Below, piece after piece: positions 4,394 through 50,046 of a stretch of 64,000 nucleotides of DNA; the first letter of the stretch is position 1; every line of letters starts with the position of its first letter. Source of the stretch: Bacteroidota bacterium (GTDB lineage Bacteria > Bacteroidota > Ignavibacteria > Kryptoniales > JAKASW01); the NCBI GenBank assembly GCA_021825585.1, contig JAKAGT010000007.1, forward strand, positions 1 through 64,000. Reading direction: 5' to 3'. Below the pieces are notes generated by a model. That model did no database searches, was not told where the DNA came from, and saw only the letters and a list, made by a program, of their open reading frames with translations. A program made the position numbers and the translations under genes.

Positions 4394-7300
4394 CTAGTGC
4401 TCGGGCGGGAACGCCGGAGTGTATGGAGGTATCGGCGGAATCTTCTTGGGATTCTTCTTTATCTCGTTCATGAGATAATTGACCGCTTCCTCTATCTGCG
4501 GATCCCTCCCTTCCATGACGAGCTTGGGTGTCTCGTCGACTTTTATGTCCGGCTCGACGCCGTAGTTTTCCACAATCCACTCACTCTTCATGCCGTAGAG
4601 AGAGAATTGCGGGACGGTGACATATCCGCCGTCAACGAGAGGCCTGTATCCGACAATACCTCTGACACCGCCCCAGGTTCTCGTCCCGATGAGTGGACCG
4701 AGACCATATTTCCGGAAGTAATACGGGAAGATGTCTCCGTCGGACGCTGAGTAATGGTTGATCAGGCAGGCCAGATAACCGTTGAAGACCGGTTGTGGTA
4801 TAGTGGTAGGCGCGCCGTGTCTCGACATCGACATCCCGACAAGGATTCTCCGCAGTCTCTCGAGAAGAAGCTGGTCCACGAAGCCTCCCCCGTTGTACCG
4901 CTCGTCGATAATCAATCCTGCCTTAGTGATCTGAGGATAGTACTGCTGAACGAATGCGTTGAGTCCGGCAGCTTCCATGTCCGGGAGATAAACATAGCCG
5001 ATCTTTCCGCCCGACAGGCTGTCCACAAGCTCACGGTTCCGAACGATCCAATCGTTGTATCGCAAATTGTATTCGTCCGCGATCGGGTTGACTTCTATCG
5101 TCCAGGCGCCCTTAAGGTCGGGTTTAGAATTGACGAGAAGCGAAACGGTCGTGCCGACGGTGTTTTCCATTACGCTGTCTATGCTCATAGGAAATTTCAC
5201 CGGCAGATTGTTGATGGCGAGAATATAGTCCCCCTGTTTAACATTGATGCCCGGCAAGGTAAGAGGCGATATGCGGCTCGGGTTGGTGTTCAGGCCGATC
5301 ATTATCCTGCTAACCTTGTAATATCCCGTCGCCTTGTCGAGTGAATAGTTGGCACCCAGCAGCCCGGTGACCGTCTTGTGAATTTCAGGGTAATAACCGC
5401 CGCCCACGTACGTGTGGGAATTCTGGAGTTCACCGATCATACTGCTGATGATATCAGTCAGGTCGTAACGGTTATTGACATAAGGAAGCAGGACTTCATA
5501 CTTCTTCTTTTCTGCTTCCCAGTTCACGCCATTCATCTCCGGTGAATAGAAAAATTGGCGCTCGAGCCTCCATGCCTGGTTGAATATCTCTGTCCACTCC
5601 TGATGGAAATGGACGAACATCTGCATCTTCGACAGATTAAGTTCGCCCTCGCCGACCTTGTCTTCGGCCGCTTTCGAACTTATTATGCCGAACGTTTTAC
5701 CGCTCTGATACATGATACTCTCCCCGTCGGCAGACAGGTCATACCCGTCCACCGGTGACAGCATCTTCGTGTCTTTGCGCTCCGCCAGGCTATAGCAATG
5801 CAGCGCGGATTCCTCACCGGATGCGTTGCCTGAAAGTCCCATAGTCGGGAAAGTCACGTAATAGATGTGGCCGTTCGCCTCGCTCAGACCGCCGATATTA
5901 TTAGTTGGAATCGGGACTTCGACCGCCCTCGACCCCAACCCGGAGAAGTCTATCTTGACTTCTTTAGCTGTTTCGGGCTTCGACTCTCTCTTTTCAGCAA
6001 CCGGTTTACCATCCTGATTTTTCTGTTCCGCTATCTTTACCTCATCGTTCTTTGGAGCAAACGGCGAAACATTGCCTGTCTGCAGGGTGGCCACATAAAT
6101 ACCGGTCGACTTTGTGTCGGTGAATTCCATATCAAAATTCCCGATGACACCATTGTAGTTGCGGTCCGAAAGGAAAATCAGGTATTTGCCCTCCCTGTCG
6201 AAAATCGGGTCGTAATCATTCGTGTAGCCGGTCGTAACTTCGTGAATCTTGCTGTCAGCAAGCGAATAGATGTAGACAGAAGTGAAAGTATTCGCATGGT
6301 GTTTGGCGTAAGTGATGTACCGGCTGTCAGGTGACCACGAATAGCCGTTGAACTGCCAGACCGAGTCTTTGTCGACCAATACGGATTTCTTCGTTGCGAT
6401 ATCCACATACCACAATTTAAAACTCTGATCGGCATATAGAATCTCCTTGCTGTCAGGTGACCATACCATCTGGTCCAGGTATTCTTTGTTGCCGTGAGTG
6501 ATCTGGACTGCGTTTGAATTGGGTTTGTCCTCGCGGATGTAAATCTCTTCCTCGCCTGTTCTGTCGGAAATGTATGAAATGTACTTTCCGTTTGGCGACC
6601 ATACCGGATCTTTGTCATCCACTCCGGATGTGTTGGTGATATCTCTTGTGTTGCCGGTCTTCTTCGGGACGGTGAATATGTCACCGCGGGCCTGGAAGAC
6701 AGCCCTCTCCCCGTCCGGCGCAATTGCAAAATTGGCGATACTCTTGCTGGCATCAACCCATTTCGGCATTGCGACCGCTTCATCGTTCGGGATAGAGACA
6801 TCCAGCTTTCTCAGTTTCTCACCCGGCAAATCGAGGACGTACAAGTAGCCGCCGTTCTGAAAGATGATAGCGTTTGGTCCTAACGATGCCCAGTTGCAAT
6901 CGTAGTCCTTGAAAAAAGTCACCTGCCTAAAGGCTTTCGTCTTCAGATCGTAAGCCCAGATGTTCTTGCGCCGGTTCGCATCCCTGTCTGAGATGAAGTA
7001 AATCGTGTTTTTGTACCACATCGGGTCCGTATCGGTTCCTTTCCAGTCGCCGATCTGCTCTTCGTCCATCGTCTCCATGTTATGGATATAAATCTTTTGG
7101 GCCATTCCGCCGTAATATCTTTTCCTTGCCCTGAAATTTCGGAAAATCCTGTTATAAGCAAATTCCTTCCCATTGGGCGAGAAGCTGAGGAGTCCTCCCT
7201 TTGGAACGGGAAACTGTGTCGGCATGCCCCCTTCGACCGAGATTGTATAGAGACTTCCGAACCATGTATTGTAGGTGTGCATCCTGGACAGAAACACTAT

Positions 7301-40889: not shown

Positions 40890-42212
40890 TCACAGCTGCC
40901 CCGTGGCTTTTTCAAGATTGATACGGGCAATTTCGAGGTCGGTCAATGCCTGCGAATAGCTCAATTTTGCCTGAAGAAGAGCGACCTCTGCATCCATGAG
41001 GTCTGTATTCGTAACGAGTCCAACCCTGAACTTCTGATCCGATATCCTATAGCTCTCTTCTGCATCCTTCACTGTTGTTTGCGCAACTACGATTCTGTCC
41101 TTCGCCTGTTTGAAATTCAAGTAATTCTGTGTCACGTCAAGATAAACATTATCGGCCGTCTGCCGTTCGGCCAATTGGGCCTGCTCCCTCTGGGCCGTAG
41201 CTTCATCGATTTTCGACTGAGTCTGCCCCCAATTCCAGATAGGGAGGCTGACTACCAGACTGGCATCCCAGGTGCTTCTGAATTCATCCTGTGTCGGGAA
41301 AATCCTCTGGTTAGGACGCTGATAGTAGAAGTTGCCCACCACCGAAACCTGCGGAAGGTAAGCTCCCCACGCACCAGCGGCGAGTGCTCCGGCTGCCTGT
41401 GCCTTCAGTCTCAATGATCTCAGTTCGCTTCTGTGATCGAGCGCATCCTTCAGAAGCCGCCCGATCGCCGGCACCGTGGTGTCGCCTGCCTGAGGAACAG
41501 ATTTGATTTCATACCTGGTATCGAGAGGGACGCCCAATACATTGTTCAAGGCCACCTCGGCAAGCTGCAGATTGTTCTCCGCATTTAGAAGTATCAGCTG
41601 GCTGCTTGAGACCTGGACCTTCGCGCTAAGGACATCGCTCTGTGTGAGCATTCCCTGGGCAAGCATGTTCTCGGCCTGCTGATAGTGCGACCTGGTCCTG
41701 TCGAGGTTTTCCTTCATGAACTCTTCGGATTGCATGGCATTGTAAACGTTCCAGTACGCGGTCGCGATCTGAACTTCGAGATTGGCTCTGTCAGTTTTTG
41801 TATCGTACCTGGAGGCCTTTTCATTGTCCCTGGCGGCCTTCGATGCATTCAGGAGCTGGAAGCCCGTGAATAACGGCTGCTGGACTGTCAATTCAAGGTT
41901 GTATGTGTTGTATACGTTCTGGGAAATCTGGAATGAATTTCCAAATCCGGGGATACTGACCGGCAGCGTCAGCAAAGAGGGTGGAATTGTAGAAAGCCTG
42001 GTGTATCTTCCCTGGAACGACAGGTTAGCCCACCTGTTTGCATCTACCTCATGATATTTCGCTTTCGCAGAGACGGCATTGAGCTCCGATATCTTGAGTG
42101 TCTTTGAATTCTCCAAACCCACCTTCAATGCTTCCTGAAGCGTAAGCGGCACCTGGGCAGAAGCCGAGGCCGCAATTCCTGCCATTGCAAACATAACCAT
42201 TAATTTCCGCAC
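40890..42212 (-). CDS. TolC-family outer membrane efflux protein
   Basis: 440 residues, normal TolC length. Starts at GTG with GGAGG 8 nt upstream. Signal peptide MVMFAMAGIAASASAQ. Two OEP repeats with the usual patterns LTLQEALKVGLENSKTL and SDVLSAKVQVSSSQL, then a second half with ALDHRSELRSLRL and TDLMDAEVALLQAK. It forms the outer membrane duct for the exporter encoded around it. E. coli ybhGFSR lacks its own tolC, so this operon is self-sufficient. Confidence 0.93.
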   Translation of the reverse strand: MRKLMVMFAMAGIAASASAQVPLTLQEALKVGLENSKTLKISELNAVSAKAKYHEVDANRWANLSFQGRYTRLSTIPPSLLTLPVSIPGFGNSFQISQNVYNTYNLELTVQQPLFTGFQLLNASKAARDNEKASRYDTKTDRANLEVQIATAYWNVYNAMQSEEFMKENLDRTRSHYQQAENMLAQGMLTQSDVLSAKVQVSSSQLILLNAENNLQLAEVALNNVLGVPLDTRYEIKSVPQAGDTTVPAIGRLLKDALDHRSELRSLRLKAQAAGALAAGAWGAYLPQVSVVGNFYYQRPNQRIFPTQDEFRSTWDASLVVSLPIWNWGQTQSKIDEATAQREQAQLAERQTADNVYLDVTQNYLNFKQAKDRIVVAQTTVKDAEESYRISDQKFRVGLVTNTDLMDAEVALLQAKLSYSQALTDLEIARINLEKATGQL

Positions 42213-42226
42213 TTTATGTTCCTCCT

Positions 42227-43135
42227 TTACGTCTTTATCAGACTTGCAAATATATTGTCGAGTGATGCACTGATTCCTTTTAATTCCGCCTTACTGTCCA
42301 CCTTGTTCCGCACCGCAGTCAGAATGGGTCCGACCTTTTCGATTGAAGCTTCCGGAACGAGGAAACTTATTCTGTCGCCGAGGACTACGAGGTTCTCGGC
42401 AAAATCAAAACCGGAAATGACCGTAAATGCCCCTTTAAGATTTCTGGAGTGTACCTCGAAAACATGCAGCGACACCCCGGATATCAACGCAGGGACACTG
42501 TTGTACCGTAGCAGCTTTCCGTCGCTGAACAGGGCGACTTTGTTGCATCTCTCTGCCTCGTTCAGATACGGAGTCGCGACTAATATCGTCATCTGCTCTC
42601 TAAGGAAGGAGGCGAGAATCAACCACAACTCTCTCCTTGATACCGGGTCCACACCCGTGGTCGGCTCATCGAGAATAAGTATCTTCGGCTGGTGGATTAC
42701 TGCACAGCAGATACCGAGTTTCTGTCTCATACCGCCGGATAGCTGATCGGCCAGCCTCCCCTTGAATTCTGTAAGCCTGGCAAATTCGAGTAATCGCTCA
42801 CCACGCTCTTTCCAATCCCTTACTTTCCTAATTTTGCCGAAGAACTCTATGTTTTCCCACACAGTGAGATCGCCGTATGCCTGGCTGACCTGCGACAGGT
42901 ATCCGATCTCCTCTTTCAGCTCGCGTCGGTTGTCAGCAAACGTTTTTCCATCGACGACGATTTTCCCGCTCGTCGGATCGAGTGCGCCGGCAAGCATCCT
43001 GAGGAAGGTCGTTTTCCCGGCGCCGTCAGGGCCGATTACACCCACGAGGTCGCCTCTATCCACGGTCATGGAGATATTGTCGACCGCGACCAGGTCGCCG
43101 TATTTCTTTGTAAGTCCTTCCGCCTGAATTATCAT
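42227..43135 (-). CDS. ABC exporter ATPase, YbhF N-terminal-half-like
   Basis: 302 residues. Walker A GPDGAGKTTF, Q-loop in GYLSQVSQAYGDLTV, canonical signature LSGGMRQKLG, Walker B ILILDEPTTGVDP. No ribosome site is obvious and the start is ATG 43135. It likely forms a heterodimer with the divergent-signature ATPase two genes on, giving one standard and one altered nucleotide site. Confidence 0.9.
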   Translation of the reverse strand: MIIQAEGLTKKYGDLVAVDNISMTVDRGDLVGVIGPDGAGKTTFLRMLAGALDPTSGKIVVDGKTFADNRRELKEEIGYLSQVSQAYGDLTVWENIEFFGKIRKVRDWKERGERLLEFARLTEFKGRLADQLSGGMRQKLGICCAVIHQPKILILDEPTTGVDPVSRRELWLILASFLREQMTILVATPYLNEAERCNKVALFSDGKLLRYNSVPALISGVSLHVFEVHSRNLKGAFTVISGFDFAENLVVLGDRISFLVPEASIEKVGPILTAVRNKVDSKAELKGISASLDNIFASLIKT

Positions 43136-43187
43136 ATCTGTTTCAGTTGCGTGTAAACCTCTTTCTTCCGGCCCACATACTTCTCGA

Positions 43188-43208
43188 AGCTGAAAGCTGA
43201 CCGCTGAA
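43188..43208. repeat. GCTGA heptad repeats, intergenic copy
   Basis: Three consecutive heptads of the form NGCTGAN (starts 43188, 43195, 43202) with a partial fourth lie between the fusion-protein stop and the ATPase start. The same heptad occurs four times in wecB at 62258-62285. It resembles short tandemly repeated heptamers known from other bacteria; origin unknown. Confidence 0.6.
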
Positions 43209-43210
43209 CG

Positions 43211-44173
43211 CTATTTTGTGTAAATCGTGGCGTCTGCAGGCAAGCCGGCTTTCAGATATCCGTCCGGGTTGGCAATCGCGAGCTTCACTGCGAAAACGAG
43301 TTTTATCCTGTCCTGCTTTGTCTCCACGTTCTTCGGGGTGAACTCAGCAGTCGGCGATATGTATATAACCCTTCCGTCGAACGGATGGTCAGGCATGCCG
43401 TCGAGAAGGACTTGTGCTTTGTCGTTCAATCTTATTCTGGCCAGATCCACCTCATCGATATAGACCGTCATCTTCATCGTCTTCAGGTTGGCGATCGTGT
43501 AGAGGGGCGTACCGACGTTTGCGAAATCGCCGGGCTCCTGAAGCTTGTCCAGTGCGGTACCGCTGAACGGCGCCGTCACGTATGAGTGTTCAAATGCTAT
43601 CGTCGCGTAGTCTAAGGCTGCCTGGGCCTGCTGGACCTGCGCCGCGGCGCTCCTGATCTCTTCCGGCCTTGCATAATGTTGCAGCTTCTCCAGGGTCTGC
43701 TGGGCAGACGCCAGCTGAGCCTGTGCGACGTCATACTGGGCTCGTGCCGCATCCATCTGTGATTGCGGGACGCTGTGCTCCGCATAGAGCTTGCTCGTCC
43801 GGTCGAATGCCAGTTTTGCAAGCTGGAAGTTCGCTTTCGCCTGCTTAACCACCTCTTCACCGACTCTCAGGTCCTCGCTTCGCGCTCCGGCGACGAGAAG
43901 GTCGTACTGCTGCTTCGCCATCTCAAGTGCAGCTTTCGCCTGGTTGACCTGTTGTGCCAGAGTCCGGTGATCTATTTCAGCGAGCGTGTCTCCCTGCTGC
44001 ACAATGGTACCCTCTTCAAAATTCATCTTGACCAGACGCCCCGGCACCTGGGCTGCGATGGAGCTTTCGGTGGCTTCGACGGTTCCCGTCCCCGTAACCT
44101 CGTTCTTGTTCCCGTTGCTCCCGCAGCCTGCAAGCAAAAAGGCAAAGGCAAATAAAACGACGTACCTCTTCAT
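43211..44173 (-). CDS. Membrane fusion protein (HlyD/YbhG-like) lipoprotein
   Basis: 320 residues. Signal peptide with lipobox LLAGC (Cys about 17) suggests a lipid anchor in the inner membrane. Barrel-sandwich/lipoyl half VPGRLVKMNFEEGTIVQQGDTLAEID, a long coiled coil (about 75-185, rich in Ala/Gln), and the second lipoyl half YVTAPFSGTALDK. The C-terminal beta domain ends in GLPADATIYTK. It bridges the ABC permeases and TolC. The start overlaps the TetR gene end closely (1 nt apart). Confidence 0.93.
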   Translation of the reverse strand: MKRYVVLFAFAFLLAGCGSNGNKNEVTGTGTVEATESSIAAQVPGRLVKMNFEEGTIVQQGDTLAEIDHRTLAQQVNQAKAALEMAKQQYDLLVAGARSEDLRVGEEVVKQAKANFQLAKLAFDRTSKLYAEHSVPQSQMDAARAQYDVAQAQLASAQQTLEKLQHYARPEEIRSAAAQVQQAQAALDYATIAFEHSYVTAPFSGTALDKLQEPGDFANVGTPLYTIANLKTMKMTVYIDEVDLARIRLNDKAQVLLDGMPDHPFDGRVIYISPTAEFTPKNVETKQDRIKLVFAVKLAIANPDGYLKAGLPADATIYTK

Positions 44174-44174
44174 C

Positions 44175-44771
44175 TTATCTTTTTCTTCCTTTCTCGGTAA
44201 GAATACCTTCTGTGAACATCTTGAGAACCTGCTTCGGGACTTCCGACTCCGTAAGCGCGTGCTTCGACAGAAAATCTGTCTTCATAAGCTCCCTTACCAC
44301 GCCGACATACGCCGTAGTGAAAACTACGGGATCGATGTCCTTTCTGATCCATCCGCCCTTCTGCCCCTCGATAAAGATCTTCTGCCATCCCAGCGCAAGC
44401 TTTTCCTGGATGATGGTATCTATCTCTTTAAAGAGAGAAGGAGCGTTCATACGAACTTCGATCAGGATTCTCTGCCACTGTTCATTGATGTGGGTCCCGA
44501 CGATTTCAGATATAGCCTGGATTTTGTCCACCGACGACTCTTTAAGAGCCTGTATGTTTTCAAAAATCGAAAGGAGGGCGTTCATCTTGGCAAGCACGAC
44601 CTCCCTGAGTATCTCTTCCTTGCTCGAAAACAGCTTGTAAACGGTCTTTTTGCTTATTCCCAACTCGGCGGCAATCTCGTCAATCGTCACCTTCTTGAAG
44701 CCGTATTCGGCAAACCTGGCGTACGAGACGTCCAGAATCGCTTGCCGGATGTTTTTAGTATGCGGCACCAT
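44175..44771 (-). CDS. TetR/AcrR-family regulator of the export operon
   Basis: About 198 residues from ATG 44771. N-terminal helix-turn-helix: VTIDEIAAELGISKKTVYKLFSSKEEIL, here split as VTIDEIAAELGIS and KKTVYKLF. The C-terminal ligand domain is variable. It is the first gene of the operon and probably represses it, as CecR does for ybhGFSR. A frame from TTG 44807 would place the TTGACA box and the palindrome inside the coding region, so I prefer ATG 44771, which matches the promoter spacing. Confidence 0.9.
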   Translation of the reverse strand: MVPHTKNIRQAILDVSYARFAEYGFKKVTIDEIAAELGISKKTVYKLFSSKEEILREVVLAKMNALLSIFENIQALKESSVDKIQAISEIVGTHINEQWQRILIEVRMNAPSLFKEIDTIIQEKLALGWQKIFIEGQKGGWIRKDIDPVVFTTAYVGVVRELMKTDFLSKHALTESEVPKQVLKMFTEGILTEKGRKR

Positions 44772-44807
44772 GGAAACTAAGTTAGTGTTATTAGTTTCCA
44801 TTGTCAA
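44771..44807 (-). promoter_or_regulatory. TetR operator overlapping a predicted leaderless promoter
   Basis: TGGAAACTAA (44771-44780) and TTAGTTTCCA (44791-44800) are perfect 10-bp inverted arms around 10 nt. On the minus strand TTGACA (44802-44807), a 17-bp spacer and TAACTT (44779-44784) overlap the palindrome, and ATG follows 7 nt later. Repressor binding would block the promoter, giving autoregulation. Confidence 0.7.
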
Positions 44808-44818
44808 GGGGGGAAGTT

Positions 44819-46783
44819 TCAGCCGAACATCTGGAGGAAGCTCTTTGCGATGATCTCCAGATCGAGCCCGATAGATTGATTTCTCGCGTAGTAAATGTAA
44901 AGCTTCTCTACCTCTTCCGGCGAAAGCGACTGCCCCCGGTTAAGCTGGACCACGCCTGTAATCCCCAATTTTCCGAACACTTCGTCCGTCCCCTGGGGAT
45001 AATATTCGGATCTTCCAACAACAGACAATTGTCCGCTAAGCACTTTCGGCAGCTTCGAGAACACCCTTCTCGCAGCCGTATCCTTTTTGGACAGTGAAAC
45101 CGGCGAGAGGAAGACAAGGCCTGCGATTGCAAACAATATATCGAAAACTCTCTTCGTCACCCTGCTCCGTTTTCGGTTTATGCTGTAATCGATATCGACG
45201 AACGGCACATCAGCTAATCCATCCACATAAGTCTTGCCGATGATCACGTCCATGGTATCGGGGACGAGCTTAAAAGAGACGGCAGGGGTATCTACGCTGG
45301 CTACCGCCTGCAACACCTGGGAATAGGAGACCCTCCCGGACGCAAAGACTATATCGTCTATCTTCATCTCGCGGACCAACCTAGGGAGTTCGGCAATCGT
45401 CCCCACCACTCTTATCCCGAGAAGCCGGCTCTCCGCGCCCGCATCTTCGGAGATTATTCCGACTATCTCATACCCCATCGTGATTTTTCCCCGAATCTTC
45501 TTGATCAACTCCACCGCCCTGTCATCCATTCCGACGACAAGTGTCCTCCTTCCGAAAACCGGATGCCGCTGCGAACCGACCGTACTCCTGAGCTGGTAGA
45601 TCAACCGCCAGCCGGGTATCACGATCGCCATCACGAGGCCTGCTATCAACACGATAAACCGTGAGAAGGCGAAGGCCTTGAAGAAGTATGTGAGCGATGA
45701 AAACAGCAGGAAAGTCAGTGCGGTGCTCAAAAGAGACAACCTGAACGAATACTTGTTCTCTCCATATATGCCGAAACTTGCCCCGAACATCACGAACACA
45801 ATCGCAGGCGCGATGTAAAAGTAGGGCCGCCCGTAGCTCGGGATTGCATAGAGCTTATCCGTTCTCAGGAGCTCTCCGATGAACATGGCTGCTACGCTGA
45901 CACCAAAGTCCGCTATCAAGGGGAAAGCGTTTCGGAGCGAGGTCAGGGCCGACTGGGTCTGGCGATTGATCAATATAGCGAGCCTGAGGAGCATCGAGAG
46001 TGCAGAACGCTGGCCGTATCTCTTGCCGACAAAAATACTCATCGCCCGGTAGAACTCATACGTCCGGTTGAAGTTGCTGTTTCTGGTACTCTCCCCTTTG
46101 AAATGGATGATACTGGTGGCCGGAGTGTAGTACACTTTGTACCCCGCCTCCTTGATCTTGAAACAAAGGTCGATGTCTTCGCCGTACATGAAGTAGTCCT
46201 CATCGAACCCTCCGACCTGCCCGAAGACGTTCTTCCGCATGAACATGAAACTGCCGCTGATGGCATCGACTTCGTGGACTTCCCCTGGGTCAAGGTAGGT
46301 CAGGTTGTAACGGCCGAACAGTCTCGACTTCGGGAACAAGGCGCTGAGCCCGAAAATCTTCGACACCGCAACCCATGGAGTCGGGAAACTCCTCCTGCAG
46401 GCTTTCTGTAATGAGCCGTCTGCATTCAGGATCTTGCAGCCTGCTGCTCCGGCGTCCGGGTGAAGATCGAGAAACTTTATCATTTCCCCGATAGTGTTCT
46501 CCTCGACAACCGAATCCGGATTAATCAACAGCAAATATTCTCCGGACGATGCCTTCACCGCCTGGTTGTTTGCCCGCCCGAAACCTACGTTCATCCGGTT
46601 TTCGATGAGCATGACTTCGGGATGGCTCTTCTTCAGAAACTCGACCGAATCGTCGTCCGAGAAATTGTCGACCACTATAATCTCCGAATCGATCCCGGTG
46701 AGAGCCTTACCCAGCGACGCCAGCAGGTTTTCCAGAAATCCGCGGACGTTATAACTGACGATAATTACCGAAACCTGCGGCAT
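44819..46783 (-). CDS. GT2 glycosyltransferase fused to incomplete polyprenyl-phosphate sugar transferase
   Basis: 654 residues. Residues about 1-270 are a WbbL-like GT2 (VSVIIVSYN, NVGFGRANNQ, INPDS, YGEDIDLCFKI). Then about four helices (about 285-400), a Rossmann CoA-binding-like segment (TLVVGMDDRAVELIKK, GYEIVGIISED) and a C-terminal part similar to bacterial sugar transferases: FDILFAIAGLVFLSPVS, LSVVGRSEYYPQ, KLGITGVVQL, LYIYYARNQSIGLDLEII. Compared with the intact enzyme at 48631-50046 it lacks the segment with the KFRSM and DE catalytic region (LHLDEVPQ). The transferase half is therefore probably inactive, and the protein may add a rhamnose-like sugar while its second half acts as a membrane scaffold. 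Last gene of the locus. Confidence 0.85.
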   Translation of the reverse strand: MPQVSVIIVSYNVRGFLENLLASLGKALTGIDSEIIVVDNFSDDDSVEFLKKSHPEVMLIENRMNVGFGRANNQAVKASSGEYLLLINPDSVVEENTIGEMIKFLDLHPDAGAAGCKILNADGSLQKACRRSFPTPWVAVSKIFGLSALFPKSRLFGRYNLTYLDPGEVHEVDAISGSFMFMRKNVFGQVGGFDEDYFMYGEDIDLCFKIKEAGYKVYYTPATSIIHFKGESTRNSNFNRTYEFYRAMSIFVGKRYGQRSALSMLLRLAILINRQTQSALTSLRNAFPLIADFGVSVAAMFIGELLRTDKLYAIPSYGRPYFYIAPAIVFVMFGASFGIYGENKYSFRLSLLSTALTFLLFSSLTYFFKAFAFSRFIVLIAGLVMAIVIPGWRLIYQLRSTVGSQRHPVFGRRTLVVGMDDRAVELIKKIRGKITMGYEIVGIISEDAGAESRLLGIRVVGTIAELPRLVREMKIDDIVFASGRVSYSQVLQAVASVDTPAVSFKLVPDTMDVIIGKTYVDGLADVPFVDIDYSINRKRSRVTKRVFDILFAIAGLVFLSPVSLSKKDTAARRVFSKLPKVLSGQLSVVGRSEYYPQGTDEVFGKLGITGVVQLNRGQSLSPEEVEKLYIYYARNQSIGLDLEIIAKSFLQMFG

Positions 46784-46788
46784 AAGGC

Positions 46789-47529
46789 TTATCTCAACTT
46801 CAAAAATCTCAGAAGTCTACCGAGGCCGAGCAGCAGGACTATTTTCATCGCCTCAATTACAATCTTCCTGGACATCTTGCTGGCCCCGACTCTCCTTTCG
46901 GTGAATACTATCGGGACCTCGACAATCTTAAACCCCTTGCGGTAAGCCCGCACGTTCATCTCAACCTGGAAAGCGTATCCGTTGGAACGAATCGAGTTCA
47001 GGTCTATGGCTTTAAGCACGTCGACCCTGAATGCCTTGAAGCCGCTGGTAAGGTCGTTCACCGGGACTCCGGTCACGACTCTCGCGAAGATGTTGCTCGC
47101 GTAACTCAACAACAGTCGTTTCATCGGCCAGTTTAGAACAGAGACGCCGCGCGCATAACGCGAGCCGACGGCAACATCGGCGTCTTCCAGCGCCTTGCGA
47201 AATCTCGGGATCTCCCCCGGATCATGCGACAGGTCCGCGTCCATTTCCATCACGAAGTCATATCCGCTGTCGATGGCATACTTGAACCCGGCGACGTATG
47301 CGGTACCGAGGCCCGCCTTTTTTTCCCGCTGCAGCAGGTGAACCCGGTGGTCTGTATTGCTCATCTGCGAGACCAGCCGGGCCGTTCCGTCAGGCGAATT
47401 GTCATCCACTATGAGAATGTCGGAGTCAGAGTTCGAATCCAGCACACGCGGTATGACTGTGCCGATATTCTCGGCTTCGTTGTATGTCGGCATTACTACA
47501 AGCAATCGTCTGGAATTGTCCGTCGGCAT
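46789..47529 (-). CDS. Polyprenol-phosphate mannosyltransferase-like GT2
   Basis: 246 residues from ATG 47529 (an in-frame TTG four codons earlier would overlap the aminotransferase). GT2 pattern of dolichyl-phosphate mannose synthases: VVMPTYNEAENI, VDDNSPDGTA, EMDADLSHDP, TSGFKAFRVD and FTERRVGASKMS. It has no C-terminal membrane pair like the long forms. It likely loads a sugar on undecaprenyl phosphate for later transfer outside the inner membrane. Confidence 0.9.
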   Translation of the reverse strand: MPTDNSRRLLVVMPTYNEAENIGTVIPRVLDSNSDSDILIVDDNSPDGTARLVSQMSNTDHRVHLLQREKKAGLGTAYVAGFKYAIDSGYDFVMEMDADLSHDPGEIPRFRKALEDADVAVGSRYARGVSVLNWPMKRLLLSYASNIFARVVTGVPVNDLTSGFKAFRVDVLKAIDLNSIRSNGYAFQVEMNVRAYRKGFKIVEVPIVFTERRVGASKMSRKIVIEAMKIVLLLGLGRLLRFLKLR

Positions 47530-47530
47530 G

Positions 47531-48631
47531 CTATTTTCCAAGAAATCTTTTGATGGTTGCGGTTATCAGCTCGACTTCCTCATCGAGCAAATGCGGGTGC
47601 ATCGGCAGCGACAGGACTTCTCGGGAAAGCTTCTCAGATATCGGGAAATCTCCCGCTTTGTATCCTGCATACTGATATGCCTTCTGAAGATGAAGCGGAA
47701 CGGGATAATAAACGGCGGAAGGTATGCCGTTCTCTTTCAGGTAATCGAGCATCTGGTCGCGTCTTCCCGTCCTTATGGTGTATTGGTGAAAAATGTGTTT
47801 CCTGTCGCTGAAAGTCCGCGGTGTGCCGACTGCGCCCTTCAACCTTTCGGTGTACTTGCCCGCAAAACCGGACCGAAGCTCGTTGTACCTGTCGAGCCGT
47901 CTGAACTTCACACGGAGTATGGCCGCTTGAATGGTATCGAGCCTGCTGTTCACACCGATGTAATCGTGGTAGTATTTCTTCTCCGAGCCGTGACTGACTA
48001 TTGCCCTCATCTTTTTGGCCAGGTCATCATCGCTGGTAAAGATCATTCCTCCGTCTCCGTACGCACCGAGATTCTTGCTCGGGAAGAAACTCACGCATCC
48101 AATCTTACCGAGGCTGCACATCTTCTTCCCTTTGTATTCGGCGCCGAACGCCTGTGCCGCATCCTCAACTATCGGGACACCTCTGGAACTTGAAATTTCA
48201 ACGAGTTCATCCATCATCGCCGGCTGGCCGAAGAGATGCACAGGTACAATAGCCTTCGTCTTTCCTGTAATCTTCCTCTCGACCTCCTTCGGATCGATAT
48301 TGAAGTCGTCCTCGCGCACGTCGGCAAACACCGTCTTGGCGCCGAGAAGCGCAGCCACCTCCGCAGTCGCGACGAAAGTAAACGGTGTCGTGATGACTTC
48401 GTCTCCCGGTCCGACTCCCAATGACATAAGCGCAATCTGCAGGGCATCCGTGCCGTTCCCGCAGCCGATCGCATGTTTTACGCCAACGTAATCGGCAAGA
48501 TCGTGTTCAAGTTCCTTCACGTCCGGACCAAGGATGAATTGTCCGGAGTCGACAACACTCTGGATAGAATCGTCGATCTCTCCTTTTATTTCCCGGTATT
48601 GCCTTCCCAAATCCACCATTTGAATCTTCAT
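47531..48631 (-). CDS. DegT/DnrJ/EryC1 aminotransferase, WbpE-like
   Basis: 366 residues. PLP-dependent sugar aminotransferase. Seen: GCGNGTDALQIAL, TPFTFVATAE, VPVHLFGQPA, DAAQAFGAEYKGK, and the PLP lysine in FFPSKNLGAYGDGG. This sequence pattern resembles WbpE-type enzymes that aminate a 3-keto UDP-sugar acid. The wbpA-like dehydrogenase at the right end of the locus would fit the same pathway. Its start overlaps the stop of the sugar transferase by 1 nt. Confidence 0.9.
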   Translation of the reverse strand: MKIQMVDLGRQYREIKGEIDDSIQSVVDSGQFILGPDVKELEHDLADYVGVKHAIGCGNGTDALQIALMSLGVGPGDEVITTPFTFVATAEVAALLGAKTVFADVREDDFNIDPKEVERKITGKTKAIVPVHLFGQPAMMDELVEISSSRGVPIVEDAAQAFGAEYKGKKMCSLGKIGCVSFFPSKNLGAYGDGGMIFTSDDDLAKKMRAIVSHGSEKKYYHDYIGVNSRLDTIQAAILRVKFRRLDRYNELRSGFAGKYTERLKGAVGTPRTFSDRKHIFHQYTIRTGRRDQMLDYLKENGIPSAVYYPVPLHLQKAYQYAGYKAGDFPISEKLSREVLSLPMHPHLLDEEVELITATIKRFLGK

Positions 48632-50046
48632 TAAGCGTGTCCCTTTCCTGACAGCATATGGACAATTGTACTCAAGGCAATCTTGAAGTCCATGCGCAGC
48701 GACATGTTCTCTATGTAGAACAGATCGTATTGTAGTTTGATTTTTACGTCGTCGATACTCTGGTCGTAGGTATGTTTTATCTGCGCCCAGCCTGTAATTC
48801 CAGGTTTAACTTTCAGTCTTCTCCTGTAAAGGGGAATTTCCTTCGACAATTGTTCGACAAAATACGGCCGTTCGGGCCTCGGGCCTATCAGGCTCATGTC
48901 CCCTTTCAGGACGTTGATGAACTGCGGTACCTCGTCCAGATGGAGCTTCCTGATCATCCTTCCGATCCTCGTGATGCGCGGGTCGTTCTTGTCCGCCCAT
49001 GTGGGACCGGTCAGCGTCTCGGCATTCTGAAACATTGATCTGAACTTGTAAAGAGTGAAAGCCCTCCCGTCCTGCCCGACTCGGTCCTGTTTATAGATCG
49101 AGGGTCCACGGGATTCGATTTTGACCGCTATCGCGACAATCACCCAGACCGGCAAGCCGACGGCGAGCAGGACCAGCGAGAAGACTACGTCGAGCGTGCG
49201 CTTGGTGGCCTCCTCCCAGGGCTGCATGATCTGCGGCATGATCTCGATTAGTGGGAAGCCGTAAAGCTGTCCGACTCTTACCTGACCCGAAACTGCGTCG
49301 TGCAGGTCGGGTACCATCTTTACCGAGACATTCGCACTGTTGACACCCGACAGGATTCCGTACAGCTGCTCTCTATCGTTCTCCTCGAGCGCAATGATCA
49401 GTTCCTGCACCGAAGACTTCTTTATGACATTCTCAAGATTGTCAATCTTTCCAACCACGGGTGCGGGGAGGGTGATTGTAGCTCCCGTTGTGGTTGTCAC
49501 GAAACCTACCGGTTTGTATCCGAGCGCTTTATATTTCAGTGTCAGGTTATAGACATCGACTGCCCGCCTTCCGGTTCCTACAATGAGCGCGTTGTGTACG
49601 CCATAACCCTTTATTATCAGGTTGCGCTGGAATGTTCTCAGGAACACCCTTGCTCCGCCCGCGCAGAACACGACGAGTCCCCAGTAAATCACGACCAGCA
49701 GCCTGAAGTGAGGAATCCGGCCGTTCGTAGCGTCGTCAAAGAAAATGGCAAAAAAGAGGATGATGACGGCCACGGCAGAGGCTTTCGCTACCGTAGAAAG
49801 CTCGTCGAATCTCGAATGAAGCCGGGAATACCGGTAGAGTCCCCAGAACCAGAACACGAACATCACGAACAGTGACAGCGTGATGAGCGGTCCCCAGAAG
49901 TCAGGAATGGCTACGACACGAAAGAGCCCGCTGAAGACGCGGATGTAATAGTAAACGGCGTTGGCCAGAGCGAGAGAAAGGAAATCAACCGCGACTAGAA
50001 CCAGCGGTTCCCCGTTTCTCTTCCTGATCGAATCTGTTATCAACAC
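48631..50046 (-). CDS. Undecaprenyl-phosphate sugar phosphotransferase (initiating)
   Basis: 471 residues from GTG 50046. N-terminal helices (about 20-120), a CoA-binding-like domain (ALIVGTGRRAVDVY), then the catalytic domain: KRTLDVVFSLVLL helix, GPSIYKQDRVGQDGR, YKFRSMF, KLHLDEVPQ, MSLIGPRPERP and KPGITGWAQI. It transfers a sugar-1-phosphate to undecaprenyl phosphate at the inner membrane, starting the repeat unit. WbaP/WcaJ-like. The GTG follows directly after a TAA of a small upstream frame. Confidence 0.93.
   Translation of the reverse strand: MLITDSIRKRNGEPLVLVAVDFLSLALANAVYYYIRVFSGLFRVVAIPDFWGPLITLSLFVMFVFWFWGLYRYSRLHSRFDELSTVAKASAVAVIILFFAIFFDDATNGRIPHFRLLVVIYWGLVVFCAGGARVFLRTFQRNLIIKGYGVHNALIVGTGRRAVDVYNLTLKYKALGYKPVGFVTTTTGATITLPAPVVGKIDNLENVIKKSSVQELIIALEENDREQLYGILSGVNSANVSVKMVPDLHDAVSGQVRVGQLYGFPLIEIMPQIMQPWEEATKRTLDVVFSLVLLAVGLPVWVIVAIAVKIESRGPSIYKQDRVGQDGRAFTLYKFRSMFQNAETLTGPTWADKNDPRITRIGRMIRKLHLDEVPQFINVLKGDMSLIGPRPERPYFVEQLSKEIPLYRRRLKVKPGITGWAQIKHTYDQSIDDVKIKLQYDLFYIENMSLRMDFKIALSTIVHMLSGKGHA

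Follow-up and report, generated by a model that had tools for sequence, protein, structure and literature searches.

A single open reading frame in the 64,000-nucleotide stretch of DNA analysed here (the window) appears to join a GT2 glycosyltransferase to a sugar-phosphotransferase (PGT) that lacks its active site. The gene raises the question of whether its second half is a damaged enzyme or a long-kept pseudoenzyme and, in the latter case, what such a part would do for the glycosyltransferase in front of it. The first-pass annotation had read the gene as a GT2 and a catalytically incomplete sugar-phosphotransferase in one chain, and Pfam, alignment and structure models all bear this out. 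The gene and its parts are:

44819..46783 (-), putative GT2-pseudoPGT fusion, 654 aa, open frame (ORF and Pfam, conserved in relatives)
45974..46783 (-), GT2 catalytic domain, residues 1-270, likely active (Pfam, motif conservation, fold)
45575..45931 (-), four-helix (transmembrane) bundle as in large monotopic PGTs (Lg-PGTs), residues about 285-403 (TIGR03025 alignment, models)
45194..45562 (-), PF13727 Rossmann-like domain, residues about 408-530 (Pfam, models, structure comparison)
45212..45253 (-), region at the place of the WbaP dimer hairpin, residues 511-524 (low model confidence, presumed equivalence)
45092..45172 (-), reentrant membrane helix with KRxxD and helix-breaking Pro, residues 538-564 (models, alignment)
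45053..45100 (-), site of internal loss of ~60 PGT residues with KFRSM and LDE, around residues 562-577 (alignment)
44822..45091 (-), shortened, apparently inactive PGT catalytic domain, residues 565-654 (Pfam, alignment, PglC match)

The GT2 domain is identified by PF00535 at residues 5-126 (E 3.1e-21). Within it N88, P89 and D90 as well as E202 and D203 are invariant in 85 sequences; we take the former to be the donor/metal motif of GT2 enzymes and the latter their catalytic acidic pair, and the domain is likely active. Behind it, TIGR03025 positions 2-278 of 445 align to residues 291-564 and PF13727 matches residues 348-508, this domain being detected in 101/115 members of the fusion family (scan at E 0.01). 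The accessory layout of Lg-PGTs, a four-helix bundle and PF13727 ahead of the catalytic domain, is thus present in the fusion. Bac_transf (PF02397) is found at residues 577-653 and covers profile positions 93-178 of 179 only (41.5 bits, cut-off 27). The first-pass annotation had recognised the two ends of a sugar transferase around a missing middle. The catalytic domain does lack its middle, but what remains extends beyond two ends and includes the bundle, PF13727 and the reentrant helix.

An AlphaFold2 model of the whole fusion built on 85 sequences has a mean pLDDT of 86.4. Comparison of the whole protein with the PDB gave only GT2 folds among the matches listed, and the C-terminal part was therefore folded alone. 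The transferases RmlT and WrtF share the GT2 fold (Z about 20.7-21.5), and we know of no pseudo-PGT part in either. For the C-terminal 376 residues alone (115 sequences, mean pLDDT 88.6), the top PDB match is WbaP 8t53 over the whole length (Foldseek E 1.1e-11). Superposition on 8t53 gives an rmsd of 15.6 Å, suggesting that the domain arrangement differs or is uncertain, and 114 residues at the end of the model can be aligned with PglC (rmsd 2.8 Å, Z 11.1). Alignment with the WbaP/WcaJ families and structure prediction, both proposed at first pass, thus agree in assigning the C-terminal half to the Lg-PGT fold with a shortened catalytic domain. Residues 511-524 are of low confidence in the single-chain model and lie at the place of the chain-swapping hairpin of WbaP. 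WbaP is described as dimerising via a PF13727-domain hairpin swapped between chains, and a similar oddity at the dimer hairpin is described for its monomer model (PMC10942596). The hairpin sequence of the fusions is markedly unlike that of PGTs.

Large monotopic PGTs (WbaP, WcaJ; TIGR03025; 8t53) thus share with the fusion the bundle, PF13727, the reentrant helix and the C-terminal catalytic-fold part, and hhalign matches them at 100% over the whole length (E 6.5e-45). Unlike them, the fusion is without KFRSM, the Asp-Glu dyad and PRPE, has lost ~60 residues and carries a GT2 in front. When the fusion is aligned with the complete PGT of the window, 60 of 78 columns are gapped between PGT residues 300 and 377, that is, from the Pro of the reentrant helix to the helix after the dyad.

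We collected 125 full-length fusion ORFs, or 116 once near-copies were removed; L191, which has masked residues, was left out of alignments. Among the resulting 117 full-length fusions (116 non-redundant relatives and that of the window), none has the Lys or Arg of KFRSM or the Asp or Glu of LDE in the aligned columns, as judged from the commonest letters of each alignment column; a stray Glu occupies the Asp column in five. The same fusion with the same loss therefore recurs in related genomes, and no full-length relative examined has the missing part in frame. The fusions also lack PRPE and the RR pair at their PGT positions. Residues of the fold are retained (PGT numbering, n = 117): K282 in 116, D286 in 115, P299 in 111, G388 in 114, Y444 in 117 and D453 in 112, together with the KxGxTG and YxxNxS..D segments. 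Residues new to the fusions are also common, with Lys/Arg at PGT position 446 in 100 and Glu at 455 in 93. Some of the 98 PGT rows used for comparison are non-catalytic or wrongly assigned (88 have the K, 89 the D and 85 the E); the 83 that passed a motif filter served for the profile and residue comparisons, and their own catalytic-residue counts are true by construction.

Four sequences flagged by motif (L122, L146, L153 and L159) were rejected as full fusions with PGT catalytic residues, having LDE in the linker strand 524-532 and not at the dyad. The spacer across the loss is 40 residues in 6/116 fusions and 9-30 in the others, WOR-3 members keeping ~25 more residues. In L053, L057, L045 and L082, all WOR-3, this longer spacer resembles the PGT hairpin before KFRSM and is without catalytic residues. 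We dropped the long-spacer WOR-3 fusions as an evolutionary intermediate, as they are nested inside the tree.

Could the gap be a recent deletion, a frameshift or an assembly error in the host genome? Nothing beyond the gap itself speaks for such an accident. The loss is identical in 116/116 other non-redundant full-length relatives, and a loss common to all of them effectively excludes chance or recent deletion; moreover, the fusion matches listed are open frames with few exceptions. Nor is the segment hidden in another frame: a tblastn search of the window with PGT residues 300-377, which include the missing part, matched only the PGT gene itself, all other matches having E of at least 1.5. 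We consider an accident of this kind vanishingly improbable. On these sequence grounds, the C-terminal half of the fusion is a pseudoenzyme derived from a large monotopic PGT and is predicted to be no PGT by the known mechanism, and the loss of its active site appears old, uniform and kept.

The distribution of the family is broad. In the host class, 142/149 genomes searched have a fusion match at E 1e-30 or better, and in the host genus a full-length match is found in 11/13 genomes, that of the window included, with one further match cut at a contig end and one weak. Across a sample of the phylum, the family profile has matches at E 1e-60 or better in 213/296 genomes, not all of them at full length. 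Named records bearing the fusion include Ignavibacteria, WOR-3/Stahlbacteria, Saprospiraceae and Chitinophagaceae, and the family as a whole is phylum-wide and extends to WOR-3/Stahlbacteria, Fibrobacter and one Calditrichaeota MAG. In a quickly built tree (67 fusions, 37 catalytic PGTs from the same and further genomes), which is unrooted and has many weak inner branches, a branch with support 100 separates the fusions from the PGTs. Over 55 pairs from the genus, the GT2 has a mean dN of 0.145, PF13727 of 0.162 and the catalytic remnant of 0.177, with higher values for the bundle (0.245) and the reentrant helix (0.478), showing at the level of sequence that the remnant is conserved about like other domains; dN/dS is unreliable because synonymous sites are mostly saturated.

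Reduced forms of the protein also occur. Eleven Fibrobacter proteins consist of GT2, bundle and PF13727 without the reentrant helix and remnant; they match the fusion profile at 96% (E 4.5e-9) and the PGT profile nearly equally (93.6%). A similar Calditrichaeota protein matches at 99.9% (E 1.2e-32). In further families of the phylum, short proteins (383-411 aa) have a PF13727-like tail only. Against the fusion profile, 12 of these from one family score 90.1% (E 1.6e-6) and six from others 95.7% (E 1e-8), as against 1.5% and 0.6%, respectively, with the profile of the catalytic PGTs. The f27 forms have a degenerate C-terminal end. By sequence comparison, the PF13727-like part is the most persistent piece of the family, and the direction of change was presumably loss rather than gain. 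Since PF13727 is the most consistently kept part and the catalytic remnant is absent in several lineages, PF13727 is the likelier docking part; since forms without bundle and remnant exist, membrane anchoring by the C-terminal half is not universal.

A complete PGT is encoded upstream of the fusion, three genes away and not four as the first-pass annotation had it:

46789..47541 (-), GT2 of polyprenyl-phosphate hexose synthase type (DPM-like; Pfam, similarity below curated cut-offs)
47531..48631 (-), DegT/PseC-like sugar aminotransferase (Pfam, similarity)
48631..50046 (-), complete Lg-PGT with KFRSM and LDE, probable partner (Pfam, TIGR03025, alignment)

This PGT matches PF02397 from 1 to 178 with 229 bits. 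We collected 80 regions, mostly one per genus of the class, of which 79 hold the fusion gene (L145 has none) and 73 extend at least 3.5 kb upstream. Of these 73 class loci, 61 have a catalytic PGT on the same strand no more than 5.5 kb upstream, one has a degenerate PGT and 11 have none, and the DPM-like GT2 adjoins the fusion in 59. The usual order in the class is PGT, (DegT), DPM-like GT2, fusion and accA, the last read by eye. Outside the class, one sample shows linkage to a PGT in 0/6 WOR-3 and 0/11 Bacteroidia loci, and fusion genes without a linked PGT adjoin housekeeping genes such as recR, accA and tgt (names by eye). In a second outside-class set, which yielded no fusion gene from L220, the PGT and DPM-like genes are close by in L209 and L210, the PGT only in L211, and the whole order is found in L219. 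Each of the 18 genomes checked outside the class has one complete PGT or more, PGTs being common everywhere.

Several loci depart from the usual arrangement. In L136 (5850-8333, -), a polytopic PGT (PF00953) is fused ahead of a complete Lg-PGT (PF13727, PF02397 1-178) in the PGT slot; L165 and L173 have ORFs of similar length, Pfam having been run on L136 only. L183 carries in the PGT slot upstream of the fusion a degenerate Lg-PGT (5944-7266, +) with LDKVP for LDE.P and a shortened middle, still scoring 134.7 bits with PF02397. In the window, a TetR-type gene (within 40890-44807) follows the fusion, likewise in L115 and L116 of the same genus; accA takes this place in most other class loci.

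We then compared the divergence of the fusion with that of its neighbours at 49 loci, using partial rank correlations with AccA distance and base composition removed. The PGT correlates with the C-terminal part of the fusion (r 0.51) and with its GT2 part (r 0.49), as against 0.12 and 0.26 for the DPM-like gene that lies between them; the two halves within one protein give 0.51 for the PGT and 0.36 for the fusion. A simpler version of the analysis agrees. For the reentrant helix and remnant by themselves, the correlation with the PGT catalytic domain is weak (r 0.13; 25 of 499 shuffles as high). This co-divergence supports a functional coupling of fusion and PGT, short of proof of contact, and can also come from species history beyond AccA or from replaced copies of the middle gene.

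How, then, might the protein work? We propose that the pseudo-PGT part keeps an active GT2 at the membrane and docks it on the initiating PGT, a reading to which we give an even chance. The GT2 would add an early sugar to a polyprenyl-linked acceptor at the cytoplasmic face. Its hold on the membrane would come from the four-helix bundle and the reentrant helix, and PF13727 would pair with its counterpart in another copy of the fusion or in the catalytic PGT. Pairing with the PGT, which we favour in the host class, would set the GT2 beside the enzyme that makes its acceptor. At its simplest, the C-terminal part probably just keeps the GT2 at the membrane and uses PF13727 for pairing, either with its own kind or with the catalytic PGT. 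For docking we count the conserved loss with the fold kept, the likeness to WbaP, the linkage in 61/73 loci and the co-divergence; against it, the 0/6 and 0/11 outside the class, the 11/73 unlinked class loci and the r of 0.13 for the remnant. Control of PGT activity through dimerisation has been proposed for EpsZ/EpsW (PMC12802240).

The main rival holds that the C-terminal half is a membrane anchor and self-dimerisation module with no PGT contact, the two genes sharing a cluster merely as genes of surface-glycan synthesis. All dimer and membrane elements are predicted to lie within one chain, one sample from outside the class shows no linkage to a PGT, and the hairpin residues are unlike those of PGTs, so that the fusion need not pair with them. 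Yet co-divergence with the PGT exceeds that with the intervening gene, and short forms keep the PF13727-like part without the bundle, which argues that anchoring alone is not the conserved trait; we judge this rival possible, with a chance clearly below even. A remnant that has kept its binding of the polyprenyl-linked acceptor, and offers this acceptor to the GT2 in cis, would fit the retained K, D and P of the reentrant helix and the KxGxTG and YxxNxS..D segments. We think this reading unlikely, as the remnant and helix are absent from the Fibrobacter and short forms, the end is degenerate in f27 forms, and the PRPE and RR positions are lost. Slightly more doubtful still is a nucleotide sensor in PF13727 that would tune the GT2 to the level of uridine nucleotides, as proposed for WbaP, whose domain is described as stabilised by UMP, UDP and UTP (PMC10942596). 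Persistence of the PF13727-like part even in the most reduced forms is in keeping with a sensor; in its Rossmann loop the first Gly is kept in 109/117 fusions and the second is conserved in neither fusions nor PGTs.

Docking on the PGT can also be carried further. The pseudo-PGT and a catalytic Lg-PGT might form a half-active heterodimer that hands Und-PP-sugar to the fused GT2, which could be a glycosyltransferase for the Bacteroidota O-glycan core; we regard this extension as a long shot. The gene is a candidate for such a role because it occurs in nearly the whole phylum, often amid housekeeping genes, and a GT2 of this spread with a polyprenyl-phosphate hexose synthase-like gene next to it could belong to the core machinery. 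According to a 2025 review, the genes for making the conserved O-glycan core lie elsewhere than in the known locus; the flippase, OTase and ligase are described there as undiscovered and most glycosyltransferases as uncharacterised (PMC12871550).

In the literature searched, largely outside subscription journals, we found no description of PGT pseudoenzymes, of GT2-PGT fusions or of this Pfam pair. A PNAS paper has reportedly classified monoPGT fusions. Bi-PGTs (bifunctional monoPGTs, a term from PMC10942596) are described there as a functional domain joined to a monoPGT; unlike in these, the PGT part of the fusion is a predicted pseudoenzyme and carries the Lg-PGT accessory domains. The pseudokinase EcpK of Myxococcus, described in PMC12004946, is likewise a dead homologue, with a proposed scaffold role in Wzx/Wzy polysaccharide synthesis, although it belongs to an unrelated family and acts at a different step.

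For annotation, the family means that reliance on PF02397 can mislabel such fusions as initiating enzymes. PGTs start many bacterial surface-glycan chains, and the fusion bears on the coupling of the first enzyme to the second at the membrane. An old and widespread joining of an apparently live GT2 to a dead PGT, sometimes cut down to the dimer domain, amounts to a natural experiment, with PF13727 as the candidate coupling part.
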